A DNA stretch of 33,230 nt from a virus: positions 1 to 33,230 of the IMG/VR virus record IMGVR_UViG_3300037502_001422, one strand, 5' to 3'. Within the stretch, counting starts at the first letter, position 1. Each line of letters begins with the position of its first letter. The notes beneath the pieces were generated by a model, which was given only the letters and a program-made list of their open reading frames with translations, had not been told where the DNA came from and ran no database searches. This document shows, in pieces, positions 1-33,223 of the stretch. Both the position numbers and the translations under genes were made by a program.

Positions 1-2
1 AA

Positions 3-3000: not shown

Positions 3001-5606
3001 TTGACAAGAATCTAAAACAAGGGTTCTTGTCTAAGTTTTATGAGGTACAAAAACTGTATGACTATCTGTATCAGTTTTACTTTATGCGCAACAATGCTAT
3101 AGGTAGTGCAGTAGCTACTCAGTTAGCACCTGCCATTGCAGCGCGTATCTATGGCAATGATAGAAAGGTGAAAGCTATGCGCACCATAGTCAGTGATTTC
3201 AAAGCGTTTATGCTTATCAAGGCGTTTATGAAAGAAGATGCAACGTTATATAGCTTTAACAACCTGGTACTAGGTACTGGTCTAACTAAGGAGATAGACA
3301 AGTTGCTAAAGGAAGGTGAACCACAGATGCGTGACAACTATCTGTTGAATCAATTGCAGAAAGTAGAAATAGGTCAAGACCCATCTAATCCAGAAAACAA
3401 GTTAAACCTATTGCAGTTAAAGGACAGGGGTTCTAGTTCACTCTACCTGTATGATGTATATGACAGCTTCAACGACTTGCCAAAATCATTGCAGTTCAAG
3501 ATGATTGCATACAATACATACGTCACTGGGTTCATGTTCTCTCCATTTACGTTGGATGATGTGATAAATCCAGCGGTGTCAGCAGAGATACAGAAAAAGA
3601 TGTTAGAACCTACACAAGAAGACTTTAACGAGTTTGCCAGTATAGTAGCGCAATTAAACCCTAGCTTGTTTTACAACAAAGCCAGGAAAGGTAGTGAGAT
3701 GGCAATGAAGTACAACAACTATCAACTTAAAGACAAAGAGCTGATGTCAGGTGGCACAAAGGTAGCTAAGTTGGGTAACAACTATGCTAAGCGTTATGAT
3801 GGCAAAGGATATACCAAGATAGAACTTGAAGTGAGTAAACCCGCAACTGCAACTAACGTAGCTGATGTATTAAAAGATGAATGCAATATGTCTGGTTTAA
3901 AAGCGCAATCAGGAATGTCATTTGGATTTACACCTGGCAATGAGTGGGAAATCATTAAAAATTTTAAAGGGCCTTCACATGAGTATGGTGGTATTGACAT
4001 ATTAGTGAAAGGTGGTACTATAAAAATGTCAAACAAAGATGGTGACGTTAAAGCACCTGATGGCTTAGTGGTAGCAGCTAAACCTCCTGTCAACTCCCCT
4101 GTATTTGCAACAACACCTACAAGTGCAGAAATAGATAATTTAGTCTATTCTGCTGATTTACCAGAAATAGAAATAAAAGGCAAAGCTGGTGGGCACAAAG
4201 ATGTAAGGTTTACTGATTATTCAGAACCATTTCACGTGCAAGAAATCAGAACTTATCAAACTCAAAAACAATTAAAGCCCACTGGTACTTTAGATAAAGA
4301 CACATTAGCTTCACTTGGTAAAAAATCAAACGCAGAATTAAATGAAGCATTAGCATTGCGAGAAAGTTATAAGTCAAAGGTAAAAGAACAAGGTGCTATG
4401 TATAAACCAGGTGACGACTTTAGTATGAAACCTGATACTTTTAAAAAACTGAGTGAAGCCAATGTCAAACAGTTGTCACATTGCATAGGTGGTGTGTGCA
4501 GGTTTTTAGATGAAAAAGTAGAACCTGGTATATTTAAAGGTGGCTTTACCAAGAAGGGATTTGACAGTGGTACTTACTTTTCTAACACTGAGTTTGAAGC
4601 TGCGCATAAAAAAGAAGGCTGGCAAAGACATAAGAACTATGACCTTACCACACCTGATACTGGCGACATATTAAGAGTTAGCTATCCTCTTACTAGACGT
4701 AATCACGCTATGTTGGTCATAGACAAACAAGAAAACAAAAAAGATAGTAATAAATCTGTTGTCACCGTAATTGATAATGCTGGAGAAAAAGAAGCACGGG
4801 TTAGAAAGTTTACATTAGAAGAGTTAAATAAAAAGTTCAACAGAGGTTCTGAAGCTGGGTTGATGGAATTAAGTTTTTATAGAAGAACAAAGTTTCAAGA
4901 CAAAGATATTGCAGAACTTCAAAGACAACAGGAAATAGAAATACCAGAAGCATTTAAACCTTACAGGTTATATACACCAACTAAAGTTTTAGTTGAACCT
5001 GATAATAAAGTTACTTCACTATCAAAACCTATGCAAAACTTCATTAAAGGTATAAATGAAACTGATGTTTCCAAGTATACAGATATTGCTCCAAGTCACT
5101 TGCAAACAATAGCTTTGATTTCAGCAGGTATACCAAAAGGAGAATCTGAAGAAGGTGAAGGGCTTGCATATAAAGCAGAAGCAAGTTCTAGATTAGGTGC
5201 AAAGTTATTACGGAAAGTTGTCAAAGGTACTGATTTAGATAAAACGTTAAGCGTGGGCTTAAGTCAAATAAATCCTGCAATGTTGAGTCAACGAATCAAA
5301 GACCAATATTTTAAAGGATTAAAAGACAACGCAATAGAAAGAAAAATAAATACAGATGAGACATTGCAAGGAAAGATTACGTTTGAAGTTATGGTTGATA
5401 GATACCGCATGTTTAGAGACAGTGGTGGTAGTAGATATGGAAACGACCCTAAACTATTCTGGTATGCTTTAATTAATAGTTGGCAGAATCCATCAAAAGC
5501 TACTCAGTCTGAACAAAAATTACAAGATTTAAAGAATTTCAAATGGGACTATAGCAATAACATCATTAACAGCTTAGACCGTTTCACATCAAAAATAATT
5601 GAATAA
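3..5606 (+). CDS. Virion-type DNA-dependent RNA polymerase fused to peptidoglycan-targeting C-terminal domains (5' partial)
   Basis: The frame is already open at base 3, so the N-terminus lies outside the window; residue numbers below count from the ATG at 84 (1840 aa seen). Residues D614, D616 and D618 form DFDID, preceded by an RIPNQQ segment. This is the metal-binding motif and context of the single-chain double-psi beta-barrel polymerases packaged in crAss-like virions, which transcribe early genes after ejection. The C-terminal third looks different: a HEYGGIDI module near 1299, a peptidoglycan-binding-like repeat near 1389-1412, a Cys/His peptidase-like segment (C1467, H1541 in NHAMLVID) resembling NlpC/P60 or CHAP enzymes, and a lysozyme/transglycosylase-like segment with candidate catalytic E1687 followed by GLSQINP. 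The polymerase call is confident; the three wall-related calls come from short motifs only. From about base 3830 the DNA becomes more A+T-rich than before. It ends 1 base before the next start. Confidence 0.85.
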   Translation, partial: HVESLQAEFRKYVGDTYGSLTYGDNIPLYMAKETYERLTNGLTAEAKRKKLDEALNTVALKYMVHYYEDMRLFTGYAGQYPDMANFFKRIQSLSSSGTPLVNDVDTNQAVIRANKKDRFVINGVEKTYGDDSLKLKGIIKEKPLVGPVVSLTDAEKQVLKDIYVNGLVNQDRVPADIANKRAEEWTSAFEEYEEADGATYTNMFFFREYKDRLGQWSQGQENTFQVELAILNQNTLNPTVYVSEDLKVSARPETGYEAVKIFDFRGGVELGRNAFNTLEPMTMLKPIYAGPVTHQEVTVNGIRKTSFHLITPSMAMGTGKLKEIHDYMLLNDTDIVPLDSATKKAVPINIENIDSFGNEENGFSYLMVEFLKEQVPVSNKEKGRIKNATQSTTIMLSNLYINGVPKDYAGEDFDALSEEEKVKQSNIYKNVKAYRDALYTVIDQSIDNVRNALGIDESEKITKVERIKSALTEQVTQPNLLDAIQQFEETITHLDLLPGFNRLEPVAFSLISNEAIRIKRPGEMAAQYSVYGFGNEDVAGQRSKRLNTYRLSEGKVLPAEVIVPLPMSMVDTLLQMTGTNRLDKAIEKYKKGENKIIIKGLRIPNQQLSFNGIYAIKEFALPTMQNYIVLPSEIVPISSSDFDIDKQQLYLPILDSKGKLSKDKKHKAYNDLLQSEIDLLLMTENLHTLLAPVNESWLSIDLFVDVLTAKGMFKGDKNSKKDREAATIPLKFQDFGNITKQIQNGVNMAQSKINVGLVANNAKQYPIGMLDKWNATPTVIVDDRKVANKLPFAQDLKHYYAMYDSKYRHVVETISTILTSQVDGVKNPYAVLMNIGQRTIGPLMLMVRRGVDADLAIKMLSSPLIEKYTKAQDLFDSTLAKSRGLKKKVTSKIAGQTITTSNLLNMVLTYAEQQDLEMYISQAEKGNLNITEAEINQALTESTTEAAYKVLAAYIYTETLADEQLSVTTAATPDTKPARNAEMLDVFNERMLDLRESSMIDKNLKQGFLSKFYEVQKLYDYLYQFYFMRNNAIGSAVATQLAPAIAARIYGNDRKVKAMRTIVSDFKAFMLIKAFMKEDATLYSFNNLVLGTGLTKEIDKLLKEGEPQMRDNYLLNQLQKVEIGQDPSNPENKLNLLQLKDRGSSSLYLYDVYDSFNDLPKSLQFKMIAYNTYVTGFMFSPFTLDDVINPAVSAEIQKKMLEPTQEDFNEFASIVAQLNPSLFYNKARKGSEMAMKYNNYQLKDKELMSGGTKVAKLGNNYAKRYDGKGYTKIELEVSKPATATNVADVLKDECNMSGLKAQSGMSFGFTPGNEWEIIKNFKGPSHEYGGIDILVKGGTIKMSNKDGDVKAPDGLVVAAKPPVNSPVFATTPTSAEIDNLVYSADLPEIEIKGKAGGHKDVRFTDYSEPFHVQEIRTYQTQKQLKPTGTLDKDTLASLGKKSNAELNEALALRESYKSKVKEQGAMYKPGDDFSMKPDTFKKLSEANVKQLSHCIGGVCRFLDEKVEPGIFKGGFTKKGFDSGTYFSNTEFEAAHKKEGWQRHKNYDLTTPDTGDILRVSYPLTRRNHAMLVIDKQENKKDSNKSVVTVIDNAGEKEARVRKFTLEELNKKFNRGSEAGLMELSFYRRTKFQDKDIAELQRQQEIEIPEAFKPYRLYTPTKVLVEPDNKVTSLSKPMQNFIKGINETDVSKYTDIAPSHLQTIALISAGIPKGESEEGEGLAYKAEASSRLGAKLLRKVVKGTDLDKTLSVGLSQINPAMLSQRIKDQYFKGLKDNAIERKINTDETLQGKITFEVMVDRYRMFRDSGGSRYGNDPKLFWYALINSWQNPSKATQSEQKLQDLKNFKWDYSNNIINSLDRFTSKIIE

Positions 5607-5607
5607 A

Positions 5608-5781
5608 ATGAAAGCAGTAAACGTTGAAGTAGAAGGTGGAGAACTTGCTATCAAGAATAAAAAAGGTGACATTGTAATCATACCTAAGTATAAAAGAACA
5701 TGGGTTGAACAAAAGATAAAAGAAGGCTGTCACCAATGTATTGATGAATTTGTAAAAACGTTACCTAAGTACAAACGTTAA
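5608..5781 (+). CDS. Small virion-block protein, 57 aa
   Basis: The ATG at 5608 begins one base after the TAA of the polymerase gene; an in-frame TTG at 5599 would overlap that gene and is less likely. The product is short, basic and soluble, with an EGGELAIKNKKGD segment followed by VIIPK and a CHQCID pair of cysteines. From memory, similar 'E-G-G-E / G-D / I-I-P' modules occur in Bacteroidota phage structural or cargo proteins, sometimes as a domain of larger ones, but I cannot name a function. It is sandwiched between two giant presumed virion proteins and shares their A+T-rich codon use, so a structural or packaging role is a reasonable inference. Confidence 0.7.
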   Translation: MKAVNVEVEGGELAIKNKKGDIVIIPKYKRTWVEQKIKEGCHQCIDEFVKTLPKYKR

Positions 5782-5791
5782 ATAAACTAAT

Positions 5792-8521
5792 ATGGCTTGT
5801 CAGATAAAAAGAAAAGAAGACGGCACTATATCTGAAGTGCTAGCACCTAATGGTAAACCAAGCATACTGTATAGAGACTTGGTAACAACAATTACTAACA
5901 ATGAAGCATCAGTAAATGCAATAAGGTCTGATTCTTATGTAAGTGACATAATGAGTACAGAATATATTGCAAACAACACGGTGTCTGAGTTAGCTTTAGC
6001 TGCATGGAGTAAAGCGTATACAAGTTCATTCATGGATTCATTTGGTTATTGGAATGAAGAAAAACTAGATAACACCGATATTAACGGTGAACCTTTATTG
6101 CAAGAACTATTTCCAGTCTTAAAATCAGCTAAGGAAACTGACGTAAAACAAACTATAGAAGCTATTGCATCAAGAATGGCAAGCAGGATAGGTATACGAT
6201 ACACTATTATAGATGACCCTAATCAAGATTTTAAAGGAAGGGTAGATAATTTTGGAGCTTTTATCAACTTAGCGTATGCAACTAAAGACACACCAATTCA
6301 TGAAATTGTAGCACATCCAATTATCAGAGCCATTAAATCTAAAAAGATAACTAAGGCAAGTGAAATACCAGTTAATGAATTTTCATTTCCAGAAGATGTT
6401 ATAACTGTAAAAGTATATAAAAAAAGAAGTTGGCTTGGGGTTTCAAGTTGGTATTACACTACAACTGAACCAACTAGGGATGAAAATGGTAAGTTAGTAG
6501 ATACTGTAATCAAAAAAGACATACCTATTGATAATAGAACCGTTCTTAAATATTATCAAACAGCAGTTGCATTTAGACCTAATCTTCCAAGTCAATCAAA
6601 ACTGTATTTAAACTTATTGAAAGAATTAGAGTATGGCACAGGAAAAGAAGTTTTAGACCGTATCAAAAGAGATTATCCTTTTAAGGTAAAATTTAATAGA
6701 AGAACAGACAAGTATGAAAAAGTTGAAATTACACTAGCTGAGCAACAAGAAGAAGCTATCGTGGAACTACTTGGCATGATGACTGCTCAGAAATTAGATG
6801 AAGTAAAAGACAAAGGTCTGATTGCTGTACTACGACAATTGCTAAAAGAAATTAAAACTTTTGTACTCAATTTAATGCGTCAAAAAGAAATAGACATTGA
6901 CAACCTGCCAGATAATTTGACACTAGACGATATATCTAACATCATTGCATATTCAGATAACAAACTGGTATTGCCTGGTTATAAAGTCGAATACACCACA
7001 CCAGATAATATGAAGTTTGAAACCTATCAAGATGCTAGTAAACACATTACAAAACTGGTTAAAGACTTAAAGAATGTAGAACCAGAATCAAAAAGTTTAG
7101 TAGACAAGATAGTAGACCCTATAACAGGTAAAGACATAGTGTCTATTTATGTAAACATAGGTTCACCAGAACAATTTGTAACAGATGATGATGGTGGGCA
7201 ATACGTTATACCAGAAAAAGAAAGTTCTGTCACATTAAACTTTGATGACGGTACTACTAAATCATACAATGAAAGTGAGTTACCTGATGCTATGTTTACA
7301 ATGTACATGGATAACTTTTACAATAAGTTAAGGTCAAAAATTGAATACGAAGAATTTCTAGATAAGAACTTAGAATATGAAAAGTCAAAATTGATAGTAG
7401 AAGACTGGAAAAAAGCAAACAAAATTACATACAATCCTAATGAAGTATACAGTAGAGGGTATGAGTTTGTTTCTGTGTTAGGTGCATACGCCAAATTAGA
7501 CGTTGACTTGTTGCTAAAAAATTTAATACAACATATAGAAGACAATCAGAAAGCAGGTGGTGAATTTGTAGTATCGGCTTTTACAAAAAAAGTGGATAGA
7601 AAAAAGAGCGTATTAGAAGGTCAAGGTGGTAAGATAAAGTTTAAGATATATCCACAACCAAATGATATAAAGTGGGCAGCAGATGTAGATGTATACTCTG
7701 GTTCTGTATGGGATGCTTCAAAGTTTGTATCTAAAAAACAATCAGAACTAATGGGCGTAAGTTATACTAAGTATCCAAAGTTAGATAATCTAAACAGAGT
7801 CAAACCTAATCTTGCTGCTACACTTTCTGATAGTGAGAACATATACAACGAATTAGGTATTGCATTAACAGGTAAAAACTTTAGACTAGCGTATGATAGA
7901 GACATTAATGCCGACACTAAAAAACTGATAGACAACATCAACAAGTTATTAGATATGAAGTACGGTAAATTAATTCCTCCGTCTATTATAGAAACCACTA
8001 ACTTTGTAAACATACCTGTACTGTATGAAAATAAAGAGTACAAGACTATTCGTTCATACAGTTATGAAAACGATATGTACAGATATTATGATATTACAGA
8101 CGGTAAGGAAATAATAAAAGGATTAACCTCTGATAAGTTTGTTTTTAAAGAACGTCCAAGAAAAGGTATAGAGCCAAAGATTAAAACTAAAGACATAAAG
8201 AAAAGCATTTTAGAAATCAAGAATGACTACAATGCTAAATCTATTTACGACCTGCAACGTCTTTCTCAAATCAACTTAAATTTAAAAGTTGCTAAATTAA
8301 AAGAAGTCGGCACTAAATACCCTAGGGCATTGATTACAAGTAAATTGGTGCAAGATGAATATGAACAACAATTTACGTTATATGGTCTGTTTCAAAAAAT
8401 ACCATCGACTGTTAAACCTGGCGTAGCTGAACTGTTTGAACAGAATCCTGAGTTGGCTACACCACTACCTACATCTACCAAATGGACTGAGATAAAAAAT
8501 AATTGTTCCAAACTACTTTAA
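5792..8521 (+). CDS. Giant presumed virion protein with HExxH zinc-peptidase motif, 909 aa
   Basis: The ATG is 10 bases after the previous stop. Residues H170, E171 and H174 form HEIVAH in the context TPIHEIVAHP, the classic HExxH zinc-metallopeptidase motif; a third zinc ligand is not assigned. Similar HExxH domains occur in large multidomain phage and MuF-type proteins, where they may process cargo or act on host proteins. The rest (about residues 200-909) is Lys/Glu/Asp-rich, with no membrane segment or further motif recognised. By position it belongs to the set of very large proteins beside the RNA polymerase that crAss-like phages pack in the virion and eject. Its A+T-rich, AAA/GAA-heavy codon use matches the end of the polymerase gene and differs from the ferritin gene after it. 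Confidence 0.7.
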   Translation: MACQIKRKEDGTISEVLAPNGKPSILYRDLVTTITNNEASVNAIRSDSYVSDIMSTEYIANNTVSELALAAWSKAYTSSFMDSFGYWNEEKLDNTDINGEPLLQELFPVLKSAKETDVKQTIEAIASRMASRIGIRYTIIDDPNQDFKGRVDNFGAFINLAYATKDTPIHEIVAHPIIRAIKSKKITKASEIPVNEFSFPEDVITVKVYKKRSWLGVSSWYYTTTEPTRDENGKLVDTVIKKDIPIDNRTVLKYYQTAVAFRPNLPSQSKLYLNLLKELEYGTGKEVLDRIKRDYPFKVKFNRRTDKYEKVEITLAEQQEEAIVELLGMMTAQKLDEVKDKGLIAVLRQLLKEIKTFVLNLMRQKEIDIDNLPDNLTLDDISNIIAYSDNKLVLPGYKVEYTTPDNMKFETYQDASKHITKLVKDLKNVEPESKSLVDKIVDPITGKDIVSIYVNIGSPEQFVTDDDGGQYVIPEKESSVTLNFDDGTTKSYNESELPDAMFTMYMDNFYNKLRSKIEYEEFLDKNLEYEKSKLIVEDWKKANKITYNPNEVYSRGYEFVSVLGAYAKLDVDLLLKNLIQHIEDNQKAGGEFVVSAFTKKVDRKKSVLEGQGGKIKFKIYPQPNDIKWAADVDVYSGSVWDASKFVSKKQSELMGVSYTKYPKLDNLNRVKPNLAATLSDSENIYNELGIALTGKNFRLAYDRDINADTKKLIDNINKLLDMKYGKLIPPSIIETTNFVNIPVLYENKEYKTIRSYSYENDMYRYYDITDGKEIIKGLTSDKFVFKERPRKGIEPKIKTKDIKKSILEIKNDYNAKSIYDLQRLSQINLNLKVAKLKEVGTKYPRALITSKLVQDEYEQQFTLYGLFQKIPSTVKPGVAELFEQNPELATPLPTSTKWTEIKNNCSKLL

Positions 8522-8531
8522 ACATACTATC

Positions 8532-9023
8532 ATGTTATTAGACAAAGAACTATTAGACTTATTCAACTATCGCATTAACCAGGAAGAAGCTAGTTCCAGG
8601 CTCTACCTCAAGATGTCTATCCATCTGCAAGACATTGGTTACTTCAACGCAGCTAAGCTATGGCGTAAGTTTGCCAACGAAGAACTGGAACATGCTGACA
8701 TTGCAAGAGATTACTTGCTGGCATTGGACATTGAACCAGAGACCAGAGACATCATTGTACCTGACAAGACCTTTGTAGGATTAGATGGTGTCATACGTAC
8801 TACACTAGAACACGAATTAGAAGTGACACAGCAATGCGAAGACCTAGCTAAGACTGCTATGAAGCTGACCTGCATGAAGTCTTTCAAGATAGCACAGAAA
8901 TATGTAGAGATACAGATACATGAGTTGGAAGAGTACCACGACATGAAGAACAGACTAGACCTGTTTGGCACTGATCCTCTCAACTTACGCATGTATGACA
9001 ACGAACTAAAAGACAAACTATGA
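8532..9023 (+). CDS. Ferritin (FtnA-type non-haem ferritin), 163 aa
   Basis: The length and sequence align end to end, from memory, with bacterial FtnA (165 aa). Counterparts of the ferroxidase ligands are present: E18 (FtnA E17), E51 and H54 (E50, H53), E95 (E94), Q128 and E131 (Q127, E130). The four-helix pattern and the closing MYDNELKDKL helix also match. Ferritins oxidise Fe(II) with O2 or H2O2 and store it as ferric mineral in a 24-subunit shell; with all ligands kept this copy should be active. It starts 10 bases after the 909-aa gene and its stop overlaps the next start (ATGA), so it is co-transcribed with virion genes. It could protect against Fenton chemistry, alter host iron, or be packaged. 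Base composition resembles the 1330-aa gene, not the A+T-rich stretch before it. Confidence 0.93.
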   Translation: MLLDKELLDLFNYRINQEEASSRLYLKMSIHLQDIGYFNAAKLWRKFANEELEHADIARDYLLALDIEPETRDIIVPDKTFVGLDGVIRTTLEHELEVTQQCEDLAKTAMKLTCMKSFKIAQKYVEIQIHELEEYHDMKNRLDLFGTDPLNLRMYDNELKDKL

Positions 9024-9394
9024 GTTGCGCACCTTTTGAAAGTCCATTAGACAACGCACTGTCTTACTTGTATACTAACAAGGTCATAGATGCTGACTTA
9101 AACGTCAAATCTAAGAAAGCACCTATGTACTTAGAGATGTTGAACAAGCAAGCTGGAGAACCATTGTTTACTGTTTCTAATGGCAAACTGTATCCTATAC
9201 AAGAAGCCTTCAACAGGTTGTCAGGTGACACCGTAAAGACTTACCAGCAGAAGATGAAAGATGCGCGTAAGGCTGCTGTAGAGATATGGAACAACTCAGA
9301 CAAGAAACTACCTGCTACCTTTACGCAAGAAGAACAAGATTACCTTAATGACCTCTTTGACAAAGGGGTGTTAGAACTTAACTGCACACTATGA
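9020..9394 (+). CDS. Hypothetical protein, 124 aa, virion block
   Basis: Start and stop are both coupled to the neighbours by ATGA overlaps (with the ferritin gene at 9020 and the 1330-aa gene at 9391). The product is soluble, mixed alpha/charged, begins MSCAPFESPLDNALSYLYTN and contains a Lys/Gln-rich helix in the middle; no signal peptide, membrane segment or catalytic motif is seen. Because it is locked between the ferritin and a giant virion protein it probably serves that assembly, for example as a chaperone, linker or minor structural protein. That is inference from position only. Confidence 0.7.
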   Translation: MSCAPFESPLDNALSYLYTNKVIDADLNVKSKKAPMYLEMLNKQAGEPLFTVSNGKLYPIQEAFNRLSGDTVKTYQQKMKDARKAAVEIWNNSDKKLPATFTQEEQDYLNDLFDKGVLELNCTL

Positions 9395-12300
9395 GCAATT
9401 GCAAAACGCCTTCCTTCATTGAACTGTCACAAGCAGTAAAGAATCGTCAGTTCTTAAAGATGGCAGAGAACAGTGAACAACCTTCTATCTTAGCTGCGTT
9501 AGACTTCACTTCTGAATACATTGGCCTAGCAGAACAGAAAGTCAATCCCAGACAGGTAGGTGATGACTTGAGACGTTACACACTCATAGACCCTGCCAAC
9601 GGTGCTACTTCAGTGTTCTTGTCTAATCGTGTAACAGACAGTGTAGCCAGGTTTTATCGCAAGATATTTGGAGACACTAAGAAAGACAACACCATACAAA
9701 TGGAGTATGGCACTCAAGTACACAAGGTCATGCAGTTGCTCTTGCAAGAGAAAGTCAAAGGTTACAGAGACAGTGCTTACACGCCAGACTTTGACAGTGT
9801 AGTAAATGTAGCTATGTCTGGTAACTATCCATTGACACAAGAACAGGTAAGCACGTTAGGTGCAATCACTGCTGAACTGTTTACGCAGATGAAGCAACAA
9901 CAAGAACGCATAGACCCTAACAAGAAGTTTGACATACGCACAGAGAATGTAGTCGTTGACCCACGCAGAGACTTAGCAGGTACTACGGATTTGGTAGTAG
10001 TTTATTCTAATGGGACTAGTGGTGTATACGATTTCAAAACGATGTCACCTAAGCCTGGTTCATTCTCTAGAAAAGCTAATGCCATAGAGTTAAACACTTC
10101 AGACTTTGTAGCACCTACTACGCGCATGGGGTGGGAAATACAAATGAATGCGTACAAAGACATTCTGCTTGAATACTACGGTGTTAAAGATGTGTTGTAT
10201 ACGCGCATGGTGCCTATCATCATGGACTACAACTATGATTTAAAGACAGGTAAGATAGTAGGACTGTCTAACATCGTAAAACCTGGTGAACTAAACAAGC
10301 CCAGGTCTGTAGGTGTAGAGAAGTTTCAAAGTGCTGCTGTCAATGAGTTCTTGAAACAACAGTATATCAAAATTGAAGAACTGAAAACTAAGTTAGCTAA
10401 AGCAGCAAGGTTAGAAAGGGCCCCCATAGCACAAGAACTGCAACGTATCTATGATGCTATAGACGACTTTGCCAATAACCTAGCTACCAAAGAGTTTGTA
10501 CATGAAGCTATGGCTATTGCCAACAAAGCAGCTAAGGATGAGTTTGATGGTAGCTTTACAGAACTTAAATCTGCTTACACTTATTTAAAGTCTATCATTG
10601 ATTTCAGCAGAGCATTGCAAGACAGTAGTGATGATGTAGATATCAAGTTGGAAATGGACATGGACTTCATAGCCAAACAAGCTGCCATACTGCATGAGAA
10701 ATACATACAGATGACATTGGATGGTGTACAGAGCAGGTATGGTGCAGTCAACATGCAAGGTGGTGAAATCATACTCAGTGAAGACGACATACTCACACAG
10801 CTAGCCAGCACCACTTCTGAATCGCAGAATCCTATCCTTAGACACGCACAAGACTTGTTTCAAGAAAGTTACAACAAACAACGCAGAGACCTCACAGAGT
10901 TTGACAAAGCACTGTCTAACGTAGAACAACCTCTGATAGAATGGTTGCGAGGAAGGGGAGAGACCTTAGCTGACGTATATAAGTACTTGTTGAACAAGGA
11001 AAAAGGTTTGTTGTATGGTAGGATTTCAGAAGTCTTTATACAGAACGTCACCAAGCAAAGAGAAGATGGCAACGTAGCTTTTTTCAAAGACAACTATCAG
11101 ATTAAGACTGGTCAGAACAAGAAAGGACAGACTTACAATCAATGGTTGACAGCTAACCGCAAAGAGGTACAGACTATCTTAGAGAATCGTTTCAAGTACA
11201 TAGAAGATGCTGGCGCTAGAGCTAAACGTGTATCTGAAGAACTGATAAAGTGGGATAAGCGCAATGATTTGAGAAACAACGAAGCCTGGTTGAACAAACA
11301 CCATTACTGGTTAGAACTCAAACCTGCTGTAGTCAAAGCTAACCTGTCTACTGAATACCAGTTCATAGAGAACAACAAACCATTGAAAGATTACTACGAG
11401 TTCTGGAGGAACACTATTGCAGATTGGAGGTCTGAAGTGGGTTACGACATGATACACAGCGCATTGTTCTACCCTATGGTCAGAGCCAGCATGGTTGAAA
11501 AGCTAGGCAGGTCAGAAGCTTTTGGTACTTTGTTGAAAGACATCAAAGAAGTGTTGGAAGTCAAACAAGACACGCAGATGTTTGGCAGCACAGAGTACGA
11601 AGAAGTAGACCAGAAAAGAGTGCCGTTGTACTTCACACAACCTTTCAGAGATGCTAATGGTGACTTAGACACTACGCAGATGAGTACAGACATGAGTGCT
11701 AGTCTGAGACTAATGGCTAAGACAGTGTACAACCACAAGCACATGGAAGACGTAGAAGCTAACATACTAGCATTGCAAGATGTATTGCAGATGGTCAAGT
11801 ATGAACAAGCAGGCTGGGGTACTAAAGTGTTTGACTTCATGCACAACATAGCTTTGAAAGATAAATCGCAGTCTGGTTCTATGACAGATACCGTGTTTAA
11901 CGCTATCAAAGATTACCATTTGTACGGTATCAAAGTGCAACCTTTTGGCGGCAAACAGTTTACTAAGGTGACTACTGACTTGATGCAGTACTTCTCTTTG
12001 AAGTCGTTAGGTCTAGGTATCATACCAGCTACTGCTTCTTACGCTGCTGCTCAGGTTAGTGCCAGGTTAGAAGCTGCCAAAGGACAAATATGGGATACTA
12101 AGAAGTGGAACCATGCTACTAAGTTAATGGCTACAGACGCTAAGAAATACAATGGCATAGCTTACTTCTTTGGTGTGCATAACGAAGACATGTTGCAAGA
12201 CATCATACGTGCAAGGACAGGTGTCAAGAACATCTTAGGCAATGGTGTGTACAACAGTCAGTTGAACAAATACATAGACCAACGTCTACTCATGGCACCT

Positions 12301-13383
12301 TGGTCTTATGGTCAAGAGAGGTTAGACAACCACATCACAGTAGCTATGGCGCACTCTTATGGCATTGACAGCAATGGTAATGTGAGGTTGTTGGAGAACT
12401 TACCAGAAGAACAACGCATACCTATCTATGAGCGTATGAAGTTTGATGAAAGCACAGGTGCATTCACTATTGAAGGTTTGAAGGAAGAACAGTTGTCAAG
12501 GGCAATTATGCAATTCCAACAAGCTGTAAGGGCTGGTCAGAAAAGAGTGGCAGGAACTTTGTCAGAAGAAGACATTGCATACTGGCAGACTACATTGGTA
12601 GGTAAGTTATTGATGCAGTTCAAGTCCTGGATGCCTTCTATTTTGAAAGAAAGGTTTGGCGCATTGCGATACAATGACATCTTAGACGTAGCAGAACAAG
12701 GTAGGTACAGAGTAGTATGGGAGAACAACGAGTATGAAGACAATGCCAACACGATGGTGTATGTGTTGCGTACTACGTTAAACACTATGGGCTTTGTGTT
12801 GAAGAACTTGTTTACGTATGGCACACCAGCCAGGATGTTAGGTGCTAAGCTGTCTTTGAATGAGGCGCATCTGCAAAAACAATATGCCATGTTAAAGAAG
12901 AAGTACGAAAACTACCCTGGCATGTTGGAAAAGATGCCTACGTTTGAATCTTTTGTCAAGATGAAAGATGGTCAGATACGTGCTGCATTAGGAGAGTTGG
13001 AAGTGTTAGTCCTGTTGACAGCAGCAATCTATGCTTTGGGTGCTGACTGGGATGATGATGGTGAACCTATGTGGTCTGAGATGTGGGCTACACACCAGAT
13101 ATACAAGGTGTTGAATAGGACAAGGACTGAATTGTCGTTTACTAACAACCCTATTGAATATGCTAAACTGGTGTCTAACCCTATACCATTGACAGGTTTG
13201 TTGACACACACGTATAAGTTGGTAGCTAACACATTAGATGAGACTAGAGATGTGTTGATAAACGAGAATGATGCTAGAGATAAAACAGACAAGTTGCATT
13301 ATTCTTCTGGTATGATTATGGGAGTTTATCAGTTGCGTAAGTTCTTTGACGTGCTTACTATTGATGAGGCTGCGGCCAGGTAA
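9391..13383 (+). CDS. Giant presumed virion/ejection protein with N-terminal PD-(D/E)XK nuclease domain, 1330 aa
   Basis: The N-terminal 270 residues carry a RecB/Cas4-like nuclease core in the expected order: H111 (GTQVHKVMQ), D200 (GTTDLVVV), D214-x-K216 (YDFKTM) and Q251-x3-Y255. This family cuts DNA with divalent metal. The following thousand residues are long charged helices with no recognised motif, plus a hydrophobic stretch near residues 1205-1220 (LVLLTAAIYALGADWDDDG). Size and position, last gene of the block that contains the RNA polymerase, suggest a protein packaged with the capsid cargo and delivered into the cell. The nuclease could act on host DNA, in genome packaging, or in processing ejected DNA. 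It ends just before the convergent terminator. Confidence 0.8.
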   Translation: MSNCKTPSFIELSQAVKNRQFLKMAENSEQPSILAALDFTSEYIGLAEQKVNPRQVGDDLRRYTLIDPANGATSVFLSNRVTDSVARFYRKIFGDTKKDNTIQMEYGTQVHKVMQLLLQEKVKGYRDSAYTPDFDSVVNVAMSGNYPLTQEQVSTLGAITAELFTQMKQQQERIDPNKKFDIRTENVVVDPRRDLAGTTDLVVVYSNGTSGVYDFKTMSPKPGSFSRKANAIELNTSDFVAPTTRMGWEIQMNAYKDILLEYYGVKDVLYTRMVPIIMDYNYDLKTGKIVGLSNIVKPGELNKPRSVGVEKFQSAAVNEFLKQQYIKIEELKTKLAKAARLERAPIAQELQRIYDAIDDFANNLATKEFVHEAMAIANKAAKDEFDGSFTELKSAYTYLKSIIDFSRALQDSSDDVDIKLEMDMDFIAKQAAILHEKYIQMTLDGVQSRYGAVNMQGGEIILSEDDILTQLASTTSESQNPILRHAQDLFQESYNKQRRDLTEFDKALSNVEQPLIEWLRGRGETLADVYKYLLNKEKGLLYGRISEVFIQNVTKQREDGNVAFFKDNYQIKTGQNKKGQTYNQWLTANRKEVQTILENRFKYIEDAGARAKRVSEELIKWDKRNDLRNNEAWLNKHHYWLELKPAVVKANLSTEYQFIENNKPLKDYYEFWRNTIADWRSEVGYDMIHSALFYPMVRASMVEKLGRSEAFGTLLKDIKEVLEVKQDTQMFGSTEYEEVDQKRVPLYFTQPFRDANGDLDTTQMSTDMSASLRLMAKTVYNHKHMEDVEANILALQDVLQMVKYEQAGWGTKVFDFMHNIALKDKSQSGSMTDTVFNAIKDYHLYGIKVQPFGGKQFTKVTTDLMQYFSLKSLGLGIIPATASYAAAQVSARLEAAKGQIWDTKKWNHATKLMATDAKKYNGIAYFFGVHNEDMLQDIIRARTGVKNILGNGVYNSQLNKYIDQRLLMAPWSYGQERLDNHITVAMAHSYGIDSNGNVRLLENLPEEQRIPIYERMKFDESTGAFTIEGLKEEQLSRAIMQFQQAVRAGQKRVAGTLSEEDIAYWQTTLVGKLLMQFKSWMPSILKERFGALRYNDILDVAEQGRYRVVWENNEYEDNANTMVYVLRTTLNTMGFVLKNLFTYGTPARMLGAKLSLNEAHLQKQYAMLKKKYENYPGMLEKMPTFESFVKMKDGQIRAALGELEVLVLLTAAIYALGADWDDDGEPMWSEMWATHQIYKVLNRTRTELSFTNNPIEYAKLVSNPIPLTGLLTHTYKLVANTLDETRDVLINENDARDKTDKLHYSSGMIMGVYQLRKFFDVLTIDEAAAR

Positions 13384-25436: not shown

Positions 25437-25724
25437 TTAGTTGTTTCTAGGTTCAACATAAAATAATACTGCATTAGATTTCATCTCTATAAACGGTACT
25501 GGTTGCACAATGTCAAACAAGTCAGGTAGGTCTAGTTCTTCACCACTACCTAACACCATAGCACCATTGTGTAACACCGCAATCTCATCTTTATCAAACA
25601 GCATTTCAAAGTCTACTTCACCGTCAAATATCATCTGTTGTAACAAGTCAGATTCTTTGTAAGACCATATCACCATAGTCTTAGGGTCAGAGACTTTGAG
25701 CGCCATCAAAGATATAAACATCAT
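25437..25724 (-). CDS. Hypothetical protein, 95 aa
   Basis: Its ATG overlaps the polymerase stop (ATGA), and its own stop is 2 bases from the SF2 helicase start. The product is acidic (DGEVDFEMLFDKDEIAVLHN, then LGSGEELDLPDLFDIV) and soluble, with alternating hydrophobic residues that suggest beta strands. The linkage to a polymerase and a helicase suggests an accessory replication role; no family recognised. Confidence 0.65.
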   Translation of the reverse strand: MMFISLMALKVSDPKTMVIWSYKESDLLQQMIFDGEVDFEMLFDKDEIAVLHNGAMVLGSGEELDLPDLFDIVQPVPFIEMKSNAVLFYVEPRNN

Positions 25725-27568
25725 AGGTCTAACGGTTTACCTTGTAATTCAAGCAGTACTTTCTCTGCTTTAGATTTGTAGAATTGATAGTTCACGTAAT
25801 AAGGCCCTTCGTGATACTTGTTAAAGATAAGCAATCTTACTTTCTTCAAGTCAGATATGAACGACATTTTGTTGTTCCTACCCTTCATCAGATAGTTGCC
25901 TTTCTTGCTGACATAGTACAAGTTTAACCGTTGTGGTAATGGTTCACCGCCAAAATACGCTGTGTAAGACTTGTCTAGTTTCTGCGCACCACAGAAGTCA
26001 TAGATGGAACACTGTTGAAATGTCTCATCAATAGGTATGCCTTTCAACAAGTAATTGTTAACTGCTTTAGGCACAGCTAAGAAATCTACTTTGTTACCTA
26101 GGTCTGGGTTAGTAACAAACCAACCTTTTTCCTTGTAAGTGCCATCATTAAACACACCTAAGTACGAGTTGACATTGTTCATGTAGATAACATCATACGT
26201 AAAATGTTCCAGTTCAAAGCCAGTGTATTCTTCCCATTGTTTGCAGATAGACATAAACATGTCAAACTTGTCTTCAGGTACGTGCATTTCAAAACCATCT
26301 GTGTTAGCCATTACAAGTTCTACGCCTAAGTGACTTACCCATTCCATGAGCATGAGCAAGAACAACTGGCCATTGATAGAGATAGTAAAGAACGACTTAG
26401 GGTCATATATCTCTCCTTTCTCCTGCATGAAGTTACCTACCAGACTGTTAGCAGACAGTTTCAACAAGTTAGCTTCCGGTGTCTTACCTCTGCCAGTGTG
26501 TTTGAGTTCCAATCTTTGCTTTCTGATGTAACCTAGTTGTTGGCTCAGTTTGACGTTGAGTATCTCACCTAACGCAGGGTAGTAACCACTCACGTCTAAA
26601 GAATGAAACACGTAGCCTGGTTTTTTACGTACTGTGCAAGGCTTGTTGACAGTGTGCAAACCACCTTGACGCATCTGTATGTATGCACCTAAGTAATTCA
26701 AGTCATAAGACAATGCAGTGTGTCTAGGGTTAGCTTGCACAGCAGTCAACAAGTCTATCATTGGCTTAGTGTAAAACTTAATCTTGTCACTGATGACTTC
26801 TCTGAAGTACTCAAATTCTCTGGGTTCGCTGATAGGTTCTTTGTTCATAGACAGTGCTACGTTAAGACCTAGCTTGACAGCATCCCATGACATACAGTCT
26901 TTCTTGAACTTGTACGTCTGCATAGCTGTCTTACGCAAATCTATCATCTCAGGGAATGTGGACTTCTTACCTTGCCAGTTGAAAGGTTTCTCCATCAAGT
27001 ACTGCATGATGCCCATGTCGTGTACGCTATTGTATTCCAACAACACAGGTCTCATTTCGTCAGTGACTTCAGCATTGTGTGCTATAGGTAATTCCTGTAT
27101 GACAGGGTACTGCAACTGTATAGCTAGACCTTTCAAACTGATTTTTTTAGTCAGACGCAACAAGTTAGACCAGTACAAGAACAAGTCAATATCAGTCCAC
27201 CTGTGATAGTACTTGTATGGCTTGTATTGTTCATCCTGCCACCAAGCATCCACAGTGATAACAATGTCAGAGAACTGTTTAATCTGCTGCGTAGTATGCG
27301 TAGGATTCAAACGTATGTAGTTCAACACAGGACAGTCATAGTGTTTGCCGTTGAATGTCACCACTTCCATATTGCTTCTATCGCAGTAGTTCAGAAACTT
27401 AATCAGTTCTTCCCTGTCATCTTGATACTTGTCATATATCAAAGTGCAAGTAGTACCTTTCAAGTCTGAAAAAGATACGCAGAAGAAATTGGAAAAACAT
27501 TCTACGTCAAGGCTTATTCTTGTAGCTGCGTAGAGTGTACTGATAGAGGAGCCTGGCATGTACGTCAT
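25721..27568 (-). CDS. Family B DNA polymerase with 3'-5' exonuclease domain, 615 aa
   Basis: Exonuclease motifs: Exo I D21-x-E23 (SLDVECFSNF) and Exo II NGKHYD near residue 75. Polymerase motifs in order: A, SLDVSGYYPAL (near 322, the DxxSLYP equivalent); B, KLSANSLVGNF (near 370, the KxxxNSxYG equivalent); C, ANTDGFEM (near 420). In motif C the first Asp of the usual DTD is Asn while the second, catalytic Asp is kept. At 615 aa it is a short, phage-type PolB. It is the likely replicase of this phage, working with the encoded primase, SSB-like protein and helicases. The first 20 codons overlap the SleB-like gene by 62 bases; the Exo I motif follows immediately, so no later start is possible. 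Confidence 0.9.
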   Translation of the reverse strand: MTYMPGSSISTLYAATRISLDVECFSNFFCVSFSDLKGTTCTLIYDKYQDDREELIKFLNYCDRSNMEVVTFNGKHYDCPVLNYIRLNPTHTTQQIKQFSDIVITVDAWWQDEQYKPYKYYHRWTDIDLFLYWSNLLRLTKKISLKGLAIQLQYPVIQELPIAHNAEVTDEMRPVLLEYNSVHDMGIMQYLMEKPFNWQGKKSTFPEMIDLRKTAMQTYKFKKDCMSWDAVKLGLNVALSMNKEPISEPREFEYFREVISDKIKFYTKPMIDLLTAVQANPRHTALSYDLNYLGAYIQMRQGGLHTVNKPCTVRKKPGYVFHSLDVSGYYPALGEILNVKLSQQLGYIRKQRLELKHTGRGKTPEANLLKLSANSLVGNFMQEKGEIYDPKSFFTISINGQLFLLMLMEWVSHLGVELVMANTDGFEMHVPEDKFDMFMSICKQWEEYTGFELEHFTYDVIYMNNVNSYLGVFNDGTYKEKGWFVTNPDLGNKVDFLAVPKAVNNYLLKGIPIDETFQQCSIYDFCGAQKLDKSYTAYFGGEPLPQRLNLYYVSKKGNYLMKGRNNKMSFISDLKKVRLLIFNKYHEGPYYVNYQFYKSKAEKVLLELQGKPLDL

Positions 27569-30597: not shown

Positions 30598-30675
30598 TTA
30601 TTCTTCTCGTTTAGCATCGTAGTAAACATACAGTATGATTACTAATGCCATGCAAATATACGCTATCGTTTCCAT
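30598..30675 (-). CDS. Membrane micropeptide, 25 aa
   Basis: METIAYICMALVIILYVYYD followed by AKREE: one perfect hydrophobic helix with a basic/acidic tail, the form of a single-span membrane micropeptide. The ATG overlaps the end of the 146-aa gene; an in-frame ATG five codons upstream (30690) is also possible. Coding is inferred from the clean topology and the coupled position only. Confidence 0.5.
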   Translation of the reverse strand: METIAYICMALVIILYVYYDAKREE

Positions 30676-31107: not shown

Positions 31108-31269
31108 TTATGTTATAGTTATGAAATAGCCATCTGTAAAACTTGCTAAGTTGATTAGGTATTGTTGGTTTATATTAGGCCCTTTAAAAACTTCTTTATA
31201 GTCTGTATTTGGCCTATAGTGTATGTGCCACGATAGTTTTGTAAATCTTGTGCAATGTATTATGTTCAT
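31108..31269 (-). CDS. Mini-protein array member O, 53 aa
   Basis: Last member of the array in the direction of transcription. Begins MNIIHCTRFTKLSWHIHY and ends TDGYFITIT. It is an obvious paralogue of the next member upstream: KL[SA]WH[IV]xYR, TDY, VFK, PN[IV]N, YLI and YFIT are shared in order. ATG overlaps that member's stop. Function unknown. Confidence 0.82.
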   Translation of the reverse strand: MNIIHCTRFTKLSWHIHYRPNTDYKEVFKGPNINQQYLINLASFTDGYFITIT

Positions 31270-31427
31270 AGTAGTGTTATGAAATAGCTTTCGGTTATAC
31301 TCTCTGATTCAATTAAGTAAGATGAATTTACATTTGGTACTTTAAAAACAGCACTATAGTCTGTTCCAGCCCTGTAATTCACATGCCATGCTAACTTTGT
31401 AAGCGATATGCAATTTGTCAGTTTCAT
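31266..31427 (-). CDS. Mini-protein array member N, 53 aa
   Basis: Begins MKLTNCISLTKLAWHVNY and ends ESYFITLL. Same length as member O and alignable over its whole length without gaps. Coupled to both neighbours by ATGA overlaps. Function unknown. Confidence 0.82.
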   Translation of the reverse strand: MKLTNCISLTKLAWHVNYRAGTDYSAVFKVPNVNSSYLIESESITESYFITLL

Positions 31428-31588
31428 AGTAGTATGTTGAAATATCCATCTGTTGAAGTTTTATACATTAGCATGAAGAACTCGTCACCCATAGGTGCCA
31501 TTCTAAACGTAGGTTTTTCTACTTTATGATACCTGTGAGGAATATGAAACGCAATATTAGTGTGCAACATGTGTCCGTTTATTCTCAT
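31424..31588 (-). CDS. Mini-protein array member M, 54 aa
   Basis: Begins MRINGHMLHTNIAFHIPHRY and ends TSTDGYFNILL. The end (TDGYFN/ITILL-like) and the FHIPHRYH segment place it with members N and O, but it is more diverged and Met/His-rich. ATGA overlaps on both sides. Function unknown. Confidence 0.78.
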   Translation of the reverse strand: MRINGHMLHTNIAFHIPHRYHKVEKPTFRMAPMGDEFFMLMYKTSTDGYFNILL

Positions 31589-31725
31589 TGCAGTGTAATA
31601 TTAATTGACAAGTATTTACTTCTTTCAAAATACGAAAATCTTCTATATGCAGAACTTTGAAGTCGAATCAGATTTTTAAACAAAACGCTACTTCCACTGA
31701 CAGGAATTAATGTATATAGTTTCAT
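31585..31725 (-). CDS. Mini-protein array member L, 46 aa
   Basis: Begins MKLYTLIPVSGSSVLFKNL and ends LSINITLQ. With J and K it forms a close subgroup: M[KR]LY, G[SG][SC]S[VI], K and the IT[IL]LQ/NITLQ end. ATGA overlaps on both sides. Function unknown. Confidence 0.82.
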   Translation of the reverse strand: MKLYTLIPVSGSSVLFKNLIRLQSSAYRRFSYFERSKYLSINITLQ

Positions 31726-31862
31726 TGCAGTATTGTAATGGATGACCTAAACATGCTGACTTCGGTGTAAAATATTTTTCCATACACAGGATATTTAAGT
31801 TGAAATATGCTTTTATATGAAATGCTACCTCCACCAACAGGAACATATATGTATAGTTTCAT
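31722..31862 (-). CDS. Mini-protein array member K, 46 aa
   Basis: Begins MKLYIYVPVGGGSISYKS and ends RSSITILQ, the clearest example of the family plan (strand, GGGS turn, strand). Same length as L and nearly the same ends as J (SSSITILQ). ATGA overlaps on both sides. Function unknown. Confidence 0.85.
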   Translation of the reverse strand: MKLYIYVPVGGGSISYKSIFQLKYPVYGKIFYTEVSMFRSSITILQ

Positions 31863-32005
31863 TGCAGTATTGTAATAGATGAACTAAAACTTCTAGCGTC
31901 AGCGTAAACATGTTTTTCCGTGTACAGGACCCATGAGTTTAAATATGCTTTTTTAAATATAATGCTACATCCACCAATATTATGTATATATATGTATAGC
32001 CTCAT
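31859..32005 (-). CDS. Mini-protein array member J, 48 aa
   Basis: Begins MRLYIYIHNIGGCSIIFKKA and ends SSSITILQ; aligns with K (MKLYIY...GGGSIS...SSITILQ). ATGA overlaps on both sides. Function unknown. Confidence 0.85.
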   Translation of the reverse strand: MRLYIYIHNIGGCSIIFKKAYLNSWVLYTEKHVYADARSFSSSITILQ

Positions 32006-32151
32006 TGTAGTGTAATATTAAATGACCAATCTTGTCTGCTCTCTTTGTACAATGTAATCTGATGTCTAGGTATCTGTTCTTTTGAAAACTTGTAAGCGTA
32101 TTCAAAAGTGTTACAAGAACCTCCCAGTTGTTTCTTAATAAACAACCTCAT
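32002..32151 (-). CDS. Mini-protein array member I, 49 aa
   Basis: Begins MRLFIKKQLGGSCNTFEYAY and ends WSFNITLQ. Shares the MRLxI opening, GGSC turn and NITLQ end with J and L. ATGA overlaps on both sides. Function unknown. Confidence 0.82.
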   Translation of the reverse strand: MRLFIKKQLGGSCNTFEYAYKFSKEQIPRHQITLYKESRQDWSFNITLQ

Positions 32152-32279
32152 ACTAGTATAGGTTTTGTGCTTACATGATCATAAGTAGACGTCATCAAAG
32201 ATAGTCTTTGATTATCGTCTATCTGTTTTCCTTTTACGCTGTAACTCCCATGTAGTAAAAGTACAATTATCAATTTCAT
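32148..32279 (-). CDS. Mini-protein array member H, 43 aa
   Basis: Begins MKLIIVLLLHGSYSVKGKQI and ends STKPILV. The opening is more hydrophobic than in its siblings and could pass for a signal or membrane segment, but the HGSYS turn and the PILV end (compare PILCK in E) fit the family. ATGA overlaps on both sides. Function unknown. Confidence 0.72.
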   Translation of the reverse strand: MKLIIVLLLHGSYSVKGKQIDDNQRLSLMTSTYDHVSTKPILV

Positions 32280-32434
32280 AGTAGTATGATTAGTTTAGCA
32301 TAGTCACTTCTGATTAGACTTTGACTGTTGGCAAATGTGTAAATGAAATAGCTTAGTCCAGCACTACCATCTTGAATTAACACATGGCTTGAGTAGTAAG
32401 CCCAACCTCGTATCTTGAATATCTCTAACCGCAT
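32276..32434 (-). CDS. Mini-protein array member G, 52 aa
   Basis: Begins MRLEIFKIRGWAYYSSHVLI and ends YAKLIILL. It has the MRLxI opening and Gly-aromatic turn; the middle is longer. It starts 6 bases after F's stop and overlaps H by ATGA. Function unknown. Confidence 0.75.
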   Translation of the reverse strand: MRLEIFKIRGWAYYSSHVLIQDGSAGLSYFIYTFANSQSLIRSDYAKLIILL

Positions 32435-32440
32435 CTTGTT

Positions 32441-32560
32441 CTAGTTTAAAACAATTTGTATAGACCTGTTCCAATTTCCAACATTAGAATAGATGTAGTA
32501 ATCTCTGACAGGACAGTCTGCAAAGTTAATAAGTTTTACCAGGTCTTTTTCTATTTGCAT
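32441..32560 (-). CDS. Mini-protein array member F, 39 aa
   Basis: The shortest member. Begins MQIEKDLVKLINFADCP and ends RSIQIVLN, an end like RSINLII (29289-29423) and KSITLII (A). Overlaps E by 10 bases. Function unknown. Confidence 0.72.
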   Translation of the reverse strand: MQIEKDLVKLINFADCPVRDYYIYSNVGNWNRSIQIVLN

Positions 32561-32673
32561 AGTATAGGTTGCATAGATGTGGTGTCAAACTTAGCTAGAA
32601 ATGCAGATACACCTTTCTCACGTGTGTATTCTAGATAACTGCCACCTTGTAAATCAATTAGTCTCAAGTGCAT
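32551..32673 (-). CDS. Mini-protein array member E, 40 aa
   Basis: Begins MHLRLIDLQGGSYLEYTREK and ends MQPILCK. MHLxLI opening with a GGSY turn; the ILCK end matches the I[IV]LCT end of B, C and D. Overlaps D and F by 10 bases each. Function unknown. Confidence 0.75.
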   Translation of the reverse strand: MHLRLIDLQGGSYLEYTREKGVSAFLAKFDTTSMQPILCK

Positions 32674-32813
32674 AGTATGATAGTTGTACCCCTTCTAAGA
32701 TTAAAAAACCAATAACCTCCATCAAATCCTTTGCGTAATCTCTCTTGACCTTTTAAGTTTGCATGAAAAACATCATAGCATGAACCTAACAGTTTTATAT
32801 TTTTCATGTGCAT
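32664..32813 (-). CDS. Mini-protein array member D, 49 aa
   Basis: Begins MHMKNIKLLGSCYDV and ends WFFNLRRGTTIILCT. Ungapped paralogue of C: KLLG, YDV, then GG[FY]xFFN[HL]RRGTTI[IV]LCT at the same positions. Overlaps C and E by 10 bases. Function unknown. Confidence 0.87.
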   Translation of the reverse strand: MHMKNIKLLGSCYDVFHANLKGQERLRKGFDGGYWFFNLRRGTTIILCT

Positions 32814-32953
32814 AATACTATAGTTGTGCCTCGTCTGTGGTTAAAGAATGTAAATCCGCCTTCAAATCTGCTGGTTCTTCGTTCCTTACTTTGAATATTA
32901 CTGCGAGCTACGTCATAAGGTAGCCCTAGTAGTTTGACGTGTTCAATGTGCAT
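32804..32953 (-). CDS. Mini-protein array member C, 49 aa
   Basis: Begins MHIEHVKLLGLPYDV and ends TFFNHRRGTTIVLCT. Ungapped paralogue of D and of the first 49 residues of B. Overlaps D by 10 bases and B by 28. Function unknown. Confidence 0.87.
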   Translation of the reverse strand: MHIEHVKLLGLPYDVARSNIQSKERRTSRFEGGFTFFNHRRGTTIVLCT

Positions 32954-33093
32954 AATATGATGATTGTACCTCGTCTATGGTTAAAAAATGAAAAGCTGCT
33001 ACCAAATCGTCTTTGTCTTTTTTCAGTAGACTTAATGTCACTGGTATCTGTAACGTAAGCACAGCCTAATAGTCTTATGCTGTCAATTTTCAT
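32926..33093 (-). CDS. Mini-protein array member B, 55 aa
   Basis: Begins MKIDSIRLLGCAYVTD; residues 30-49 (FGSS...FFNHRRGTIIILCT) match C and D. It is six residues longer at the C-terminus because its frame runs on past the usual junction into C, making a 28-base overlap, the longest in the array. Function unknown. Confidence 0.85.
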   Translation of the reverse strand: MKIDSIRLLGCAYVTDTSDIKSTEKRQRRFGSSFSFFNHRRGTIIILCTLNTSNY

Positions 33094-33223
33094 AGTTGAT
33101 GATTAACGTTATTGATTTGTGCATTCCTCTAAACCTGTGGCCTGCATTTTGAACTATTACAGGATAGTCAACATGTCGCATGTCCAGTGGATGTCTACCT
33201 CTAAACCTAACATATAGTTCCAT
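33083..33223 (-). CDS. Mini-protein array member A, 46 aa
   Basis: First member inside the window. Begins MELYVRFRGRHPLDMRHV and ends KSITLIINYEN. An RFRG motif occurs twice (near residues 6-9 and 30-33, HRFRGMH). The MELYV opening and SITLII end fit the family. The array probably continues past the window edge 7 bases upstream. Overlaps B by 11 bases. Function unknown. Confidence 0.78.
   Translation of the reverse strand: MELYVRFRGRHPLDMRHVDYPVIVQNAGHRFRGMHKSITLIINYEN

Follow-up and report, generated by a model that had tools for sequence, protein, structure and literature searches.

Tiny chained genes in divergent crAss-like phages and their possible relation to an upstream truncated C-type lectin protein

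Anti-CRISPR (Acr) arrays typically hold a few unrelated genes. Regions of short open reading frames (ORFs) with different polarities, the products of which are unmatched between close genomes, have been described in the zeta crAss-like phages (PMC7886860). In the case of diversity-generating retroelements (DGRs), the variable region corresponds to the C-terminal 40–45 amino acids (aa) of C-type lectin (CLec) proteins of the formylglycine-generating enzyme (FGE) type (PMC6328139). Arrays, tandem genes and paralogues are not mentioned in a review of phage small proteins (PMC11323111). Here, an array of 15 tiny minus-strand genes (A–O) is described, which occupies positions 31108–33223 of a 33,230 bp stretch of viral DNA (in the following, the window). 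The latter is the whole IMG/VR virus record IMGVR_UViG_3300037502_001422, and is probably a fragment of a larger genome. No array of this form was found in the open-access literature, a source that leaves most subscription journals outside, so that the novelty is provisional.

The array, its relatives and its coding status

The fifteen chained frames of 39–55 codons that had been listed when the window was read from its letters alone (the sequence-only reading) are all present. Their near-gapless packing is borne out by a coding share of 99.7% and by overlaps at 13 of the 14 junctions: nine are 4 bp overlaps of the ATGA type, four are longer (10, 10, 11 and 28 bp), and only that between F and G is a gap (6 bp). 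The number itself is a minimum. With only 7 nt between the start of gene A and the contig end, the window array is truncated and 15 is a lower limit. For comparison, when the window was shuffled 200 times with its dinucleotides preserved, short ATG ORFs formed chains of two to five members at most; in the remainder of the real sequence they reach five. Within the subgroups that can be recognized, identities are 43–55% (B/C/D), 26–46% (J/K/L) and 51% (N/O).

A search with the window polymerase led to G001 and G002 (contigs of 105 and 102 kb, polymerase 63% identical), and an alignment of the DnaB-like helicase to G007, G008, G009 and G010 (polymerase identity to the window, 61% for the first three and 73% for G010). 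Arrays are found at the same locus in five of these IMG/VR crAss-like relatives: 54 genes in 7.2 kb in G010, 50 genes in 5.7 kb in G001, 56 genes in 6.4 kb in G002 and at least 27 genes in 3.9 kb in G007, with the same array in G008, while the G009 contig starts too near the polymerase to show the locus. Overall, the encoded proteins are of approximately 30–60 aa, with up to approximately 55 genes per chain, and the coding density of the three long arrays (G010, G001, G002) is 99%. In G010, 49 of the 53 junctions overlap, all 49 with one frame step (1, 4, 10, 28 or 34 bp), as would be expected if duplication involved entire units, from ATG to ATG, with drift confined to the stop; we infer from this pattern that duplication of such units generates the array.

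Selection was estimated on 43 orthologous pairs of tiny genes from G001 and G002, with the overlapping codons masked. The proportions of synonymous and non-synonymous differences were 0.322 (pS) and 0.123 (pN), and the ratio of non-synonymous to synonymous rates (dN/dS) was 0.32, or, by zone, 0.23 (N-terminal), 0.37 (middle) and 0.24 (C-terminal positions 4–10). The polymerase gave 0.04, and paralogue pairs inside the window 0.26–0.99, the latter being close to saturation. The result named in the sequence-only reading as refuting it, a dN/dS near 1 with broken frames, was looked for in the relatives and not obtained, the frames being kept. On this sequence evidence, the tiny ORFs are real protein genes under selection, and the earlier view of an amplified, fast-diverging family of selected small proteins is upheld by the dN/dS value, the fast turnover of units and their shared ends. 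That the chain consists of chance ORFs, or is a structural or non-coding DNA repeat, is refuted by the dN/dS found in the relatives and is to be regarded as extremely improbable: a chain of 15 stands against at most five in the shuffles, purifying selection is accompanied by ordinary dS, the overlaps of 1, 4, 7 and 10 bp imply that no fixed repeat is kept, and AAA and AAG are used at the Lys codons of the C-terminal motif much as elsewhere.

A role of the C-terminal motif as the ribosome-binding element of the next gene was also considered, and rejected, dS not being reduced there and codon use being ordinary. In favour of such a role, the spacing from the motif Lys to the next ATG (11 nt) is indeed more constant than that to the stop; however, the motif is retained in units without an overlap with their successor (6/6 in G007, 2/4 in G001 and 4/5 in G002). 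Such retention, along with the ordinary dS and codon use, favours a motif that is conserved at the protein level.

The tiny proteins combine a conserved N-terminus and a conserved C-terminal hydrophobic strand with a variable middle. End profiles built on G010 only, when applied to the 15 window proteins and compared with shuffled sequences, yielded z values of 5.6 (N-terminal) and 9.0 (C-terminal); the G010 C-terminal profile also extends to G001, in the other branch (z, 5.2), and that of G001 to G007 (z, 13.8), the G007 end being roughly [FIL]-x-[IV]-x-L-K-x-[IV]. The N-terminal plan of the window/G010 branch is M-x-[LI]..G-[GS]-x-aromatic. A Gly followed by Gly or a few other residues is found at residues 6–16 in 49 of its 69 proteins, and in 32 of these 49 an aromatic residue or His ([YFWH]) is located three residues past the Gly (P = 3e-14). 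The shared plan of the sequence-only reading holds for the ends, which the G010-trained profiles recognize, but the G-[GS]-x-aromatic turn is present only in about half to two-thirds of the members.

Whole units are gained and lost as the array evolves, and their turnover is very fast. G001 and G002 (polymerases 94% identical) have most units in common and in the same order, with a minority present in only one of the two; for the window and G010, BLAST recognizes a single cluster of units (J, K and L with G010 unit 38). The units might each be a distinct, non-interchangeable component of a single large hetero-oligomer or filament assembled through edge-strand pairing, as would suit the terminal strands common to all of them and a linked translation giving a stoichiometric output. 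However, unit numbers from 27 or more to 56, along with gains and losses between phages as close as G001 and G002, make a fixed assembly unlikely, since it should not tolerate such change. Distinctly less probable is a silent donor store, with units recombining into an expressed gene: conserved ends and a variable middle do recall the donor cassettes of antigenic variation, but start and stop are kept by every unit, the low dN/dS applies across units, and no expressed recipient gene bearing a unit was found, the protein encoded upstream of the array ending without one.

A truncated CLec protein upstream of the array

In all four genomes that show the region (G001, G002, G007, G010), the first recognizable gene upstream of the array invariably encodes an FGE-sulfatase/CLec protein of 274–318 aa, hereafter the scaffold. 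It matches PF03781 with approximately 27–40 bits (curated cut-off, 23.3) over profile positions 62–191 of 255, and the only PDB match of its profile is TvpA (E = 1.4e-14; TvpA residues 93–226 of 294). The scaffold stops after the GLYD-x2-GNVW motif, approximately 30–44 residues beyond GNVWKM; the RGGSW and GFR motifs are absent and the C-terminal catalytic half of the PF03781 family is missing. By these profile matches, it is a CLec protein minus the C-terminal half that bears the DGR variable region. A pattern-based search of 2.9 million viral contigs, of limited reach, found its relatives only in array-bearing contigs, and no PF03781 match was detected in 11 array-less relatives. Across the relatives, the gene upstream of the array is conserved and the downstream neighbours are not. 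In G010, where the scaffold gene occupies C1:10799–11752, it is separated by 69 nt from the first array-type ORF (ending CGTTTVLI), the resemblance of which to window genes C and D suggests that the head of the window array may lie only a short way beyond the contig end.

An FGE-family gene adjoining an array of small peptides could also point to precursors akin to ribosomally synthesized and post-translationally modified peptides, to be processed by the FGE-like enzyme. The catalytic cysteines of FGE sit in the C-terminal half, which is the one that the scaffold lacks; moreover, Cys accounts for only 1.5–3.6% of the residues of the tiny proteins and the end profiles contain no conserved Cys position. 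Such a role is considered highly improbable.

It is proposed instead that each tiny protein would correspond to the variable half of a CLec domain, detached from the rest (strand, GG-x-aromatic, variable loops, last strand), and would complete the scaffold. All units would be translated from a single transcript through termination–reinitiation, and one scaffold with approximately 50 halves would yield a stored and expressed repertoire of binding surfaces. These may be aimed at varied host targets, and the location of the genes with those for replication, not with the tail genes, makes action within the infected cell (counter-defence or takeover) the likeliest. That the array is a host-directed, expressed repertoire of detached CLec variable halves serving one scaffold is offered as a plausible but tentative reading; a further formulation, namely a split-lectin repertoire in which protein diversity is held in approximately 50 tiny expressed genes, each for one detached variable half, with a shared scaffold and no DGR reverse transcriptase, is put forward with greater reserve.

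Several observations are consistent with this split-lectin proposal. The half missing from the scaffold amounts to 40–45 residues, matching the size of the tiny proteins. The FGE C-termini that were collected read RVLRGGSW...CRVSxR...P...GFRLAL, and the tiny proteins share with them both length and order of elements (strand, G-G-x-aromatic, variable stretch and last strand, [GS]-x-x-L-x-L). When compared with a 278-column FGE profile, the G010 unit profile aligns with columns 227–266, co-linearly over 38 columns, with a score of 13.6 (control profiles, 6.4–9.4), and its C-terminal score was reached by none of 60 column shuffles. One unit terminates with DIGFRIVVK, which resembles the FGE ending GFRLAL.

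A number of results weigh against the proposal. The hhalign probability for the tiny family against the CLec C-terminal half is below 5%, and single tiny proteins are not clearly above shuffles on the FGE C-terminus, with group mean z values of 3.0 for G010 and 3.6 for G002 but only approximately 1 for the window, G001 and G007. The Arg that precedes GG, a hallmark of FGE, is not enriched in the tiny proteins; the eight GG-type proteins of the window, taken alone, match FGE in register with no further signal; and the G001/G002/G007 branch, which lacks the GG turn, matches in the last strand only. Scores are also inflated by the use of anchored alignments built on the motifs themselves, for which column shuffling and reversal control only in part. 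No match of 28 members was found in Pfam and PHROG searches, and the PDB profile search of the family was empty even at E 10. Low-confidence AlphaFold models from both branches gave one C-terminal hairpin (pLDDT 50) and one helical structure (pLDDT 57); as predictions they are uninformative and were not used, so that the beta-rich nature suggested in the sequence-only reading fits the sequence pattern but gains nothing from them. Furthermore, in G001 and G007 a few other small genes lie between scaffold and array, and the confinement of both to one clade makes their co-occurrence count as one phylogenetic event.

The main alternative is a fast-evolving cocktail of independent host-takeover or counter-defence peptides, amplified in one operon and unrelated to the CLec protein, which is likewise plausible and likewise tentative. 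Small size, fast turnover, a variable middle and the lack of homologues all fit, and crAss-like phages have already been suspected of carrying Acr-like arrays of short genes (PMC7886860). On the other hand, a single paralogous family of approximately 50 genes with conserved ends is unlike the usual Acr loci, and neither a host target nor an aca-type gene turned up, although no search was aimed at them. The split-lectin proposal and independent host-directed peptides are considered about equally likely.

Two of the relatives, and no others, encode a second, complete FGE-sulfatase protein (RGGAY...GFRLAL) at approximately 9 kb upstream of their arrays (G001, C1:90150–90809; G002, C1:72048–72704). 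This protein could be the source of the array, or a partner to it.

Genomic neighbourhood and phage lineage

The features of the window locus are listed in table 1. The replication-type genes of the window (polymerase, helicases, primase and a Sak4-like protein) are on the minus strand, and the position of the array upstream of them, as noted in the sequence-only reading, is confirmed in what is a crAss-like phage. The best matches of the window polymerase are with crAss-like phages (26–27%), and the G001 major capsid protein has matches among the major head proteins of crAss-like phages (22–25%); by these similarities, the window phage and its relatives are therefore a divergent crAss-like lineage (Crassvirales). 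The host probably belongs to Bacteroidota, as suggested by the 44–47% identity of the complete FGE protein of G001 with Bacteroidota homologues (e.g. of Saprospiraceae).

Table 1. Coordinates of the tiny genes and of two neighbouring genes in the window.
Feature	Size	Position	Strand	Remarks
Tiny gene A	46 aa	33083..33223	(-)	first complete one; 7 nt to contig end upstream
Tiny gene B	55 aa	32926..33093	(-)	subgroup B/C/D; overlaps A by 11 bp
Tiny gene C	49 aa	32804..32953	(-)	overlaps B by 28 bp; B/C identity 53%
Tiny gene D	49 aa (47 from second ATG)	32664..32813	(-)	10-bp overlap ATGCACATGA
Tiny gene E	40 aa	32551..32673	(-)	GGSY turn
Tiny gene F	39 aa	32441..32560	(-)	
Tiny gene G	52 aa	32276..32434	(-)	6-bp gap to F, the one junction without overlap
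Tiny gene H	43 aa	32148..32279	(-)	ATGA junction
Tiny gene I	49 aa	32002..32151	(-)	ATGA junction
Tiny gene J	48 aa	31859..32005	(-)	subgroup J/K/L, which groups with G010 unit 38
Tiny gene K	46 aa	31722..31862	(-)	subgroup J/K/L
Tiny gene L	46 aa	31585..31725	(-)	subgroup J/K/L
Tiny gene M	54 aa	31424..31588	(-)	
Tiny gene N	53 aa	31266..31427	(-)	N/O identity 51%
Tiny gene O	53 aa	31108..31269	(-)	end of array
First ordinary gene past array	146 aa	30663..31103	(-)	matches unnamed PHROGs weakly; by eye similar to MazG
crAss-type DNA polymerase		25721..27568	(-)	query for finding relatives

The downstream context varies: an AAA protein is found in G001, and the 146-aa gene of the window has a similar one after the array in G010; a search with this gene as the query gave no matches. 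No array was found in the stretches examined of distant polymerase-bearing contigs (25–31% identity), nor in those of crAss phages of gut or marine origin (cr50_1, cr4_1, cr130_1, a Bohxovirus and Cellulophaga phi14:2). In the gut phages cr50_1, cr4_1 and cr130_1, unannotated gaps of 2–2.5 kb, located some kb upstream of the DNA polymerase gene, were considered as hidden arrays and discarded, as they contain no chained ORFs, and the cr50_1 gap (MT774375.1, about 44,405–46,918) has no Rfam match. Blastn and tblastn against annotated phages revealed relatives of neither the array nor the scaffold, and a degenerate DNA pattern of the junctions, run over IMG/VR, gave chance matches only.

Three TATATTTG motifs are present on the minus strand at window positions 30660, 30592 and 29841, interspersed with the ordinary genes that directly follow the array; the array itself contains none. 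We take the motif to resemble the Bacteroidota −7 promoter element TAnnTTTG. On the plus strand, window positions 1–13383 contain very large ORFs of 1867, 909 and 1330 aa; residues 106–274 of the last match a PHROG exonuclease family, and its homologues in G001/G002 are 61–62% identical. In the small-gene region upstream in G010 (C1:412–1119), a 235-aa protein is pentapeptide-repeat-like (A-[DN]-[LF] repeats).

Implications and comparison with known systems

Approximately 50 chained genes of approximately 40 codons would mostly be dropped by gene callers at the usual length limits, so that entire loci of this kind could be absent from phage annotation. If the units are variable halves of a lectin, they would represent a new way of holding and expressing binding diversity; if they are independent peptides, the array would supply an uncommonly large set of phage proteins, already sorted, that probably target host factors. 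Either reading lends itself to testing with small synthetic genes in laboratory strains.

Among the described systems, the short-ORF regions of the zeta crAss-like phages (PMC7886860), the nearest description that the open-access literature yielded, are alike in belonging to Crassvirales and in the divergence of their short ORFs even from one close genome to another, but they are of mixed polarities and without recognizable products, whereas the array is on one strand, with mostly one frame step, and encodes one selected family. Anti-CRISPR arrays are also made of tandem, small, fast-evolving phage genes without homologues; they usually comprise few unrelated genes, in contrast to the dozens of paralogues with conserved ends and ATGA-type overlaps found here. 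The DGR-bearing crAss-like phages (PMC7290462, PMC12386605) diversify a protein as well, but with a reverse transcriptase acting on tail proteins, whereas the present locus lies beside replication genes with no reverse transcriptase. A DGR was considered and rejected: no PF00078 match was found in G000, G001, G002, G007 and G010 (of which G000 and G007 are fragments), control genomes being positive, and the scaffold ends before the C-terminal variable region that a DGR-type target has of its own. The DGR variable proteins of the FGE-type CLec fold (TvpA, TaqVP, Mtd) are similar in that the scaffold is a sequence relative of TvpA and the diversified C-terminal 40–45 aa (PMC6328139) equal the tiny proteins in size. 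The difference is that in DGRs the variable region is within one protein and is altered by mutagenic copying, whereas here approximately 50 separate genes would store the diversity.

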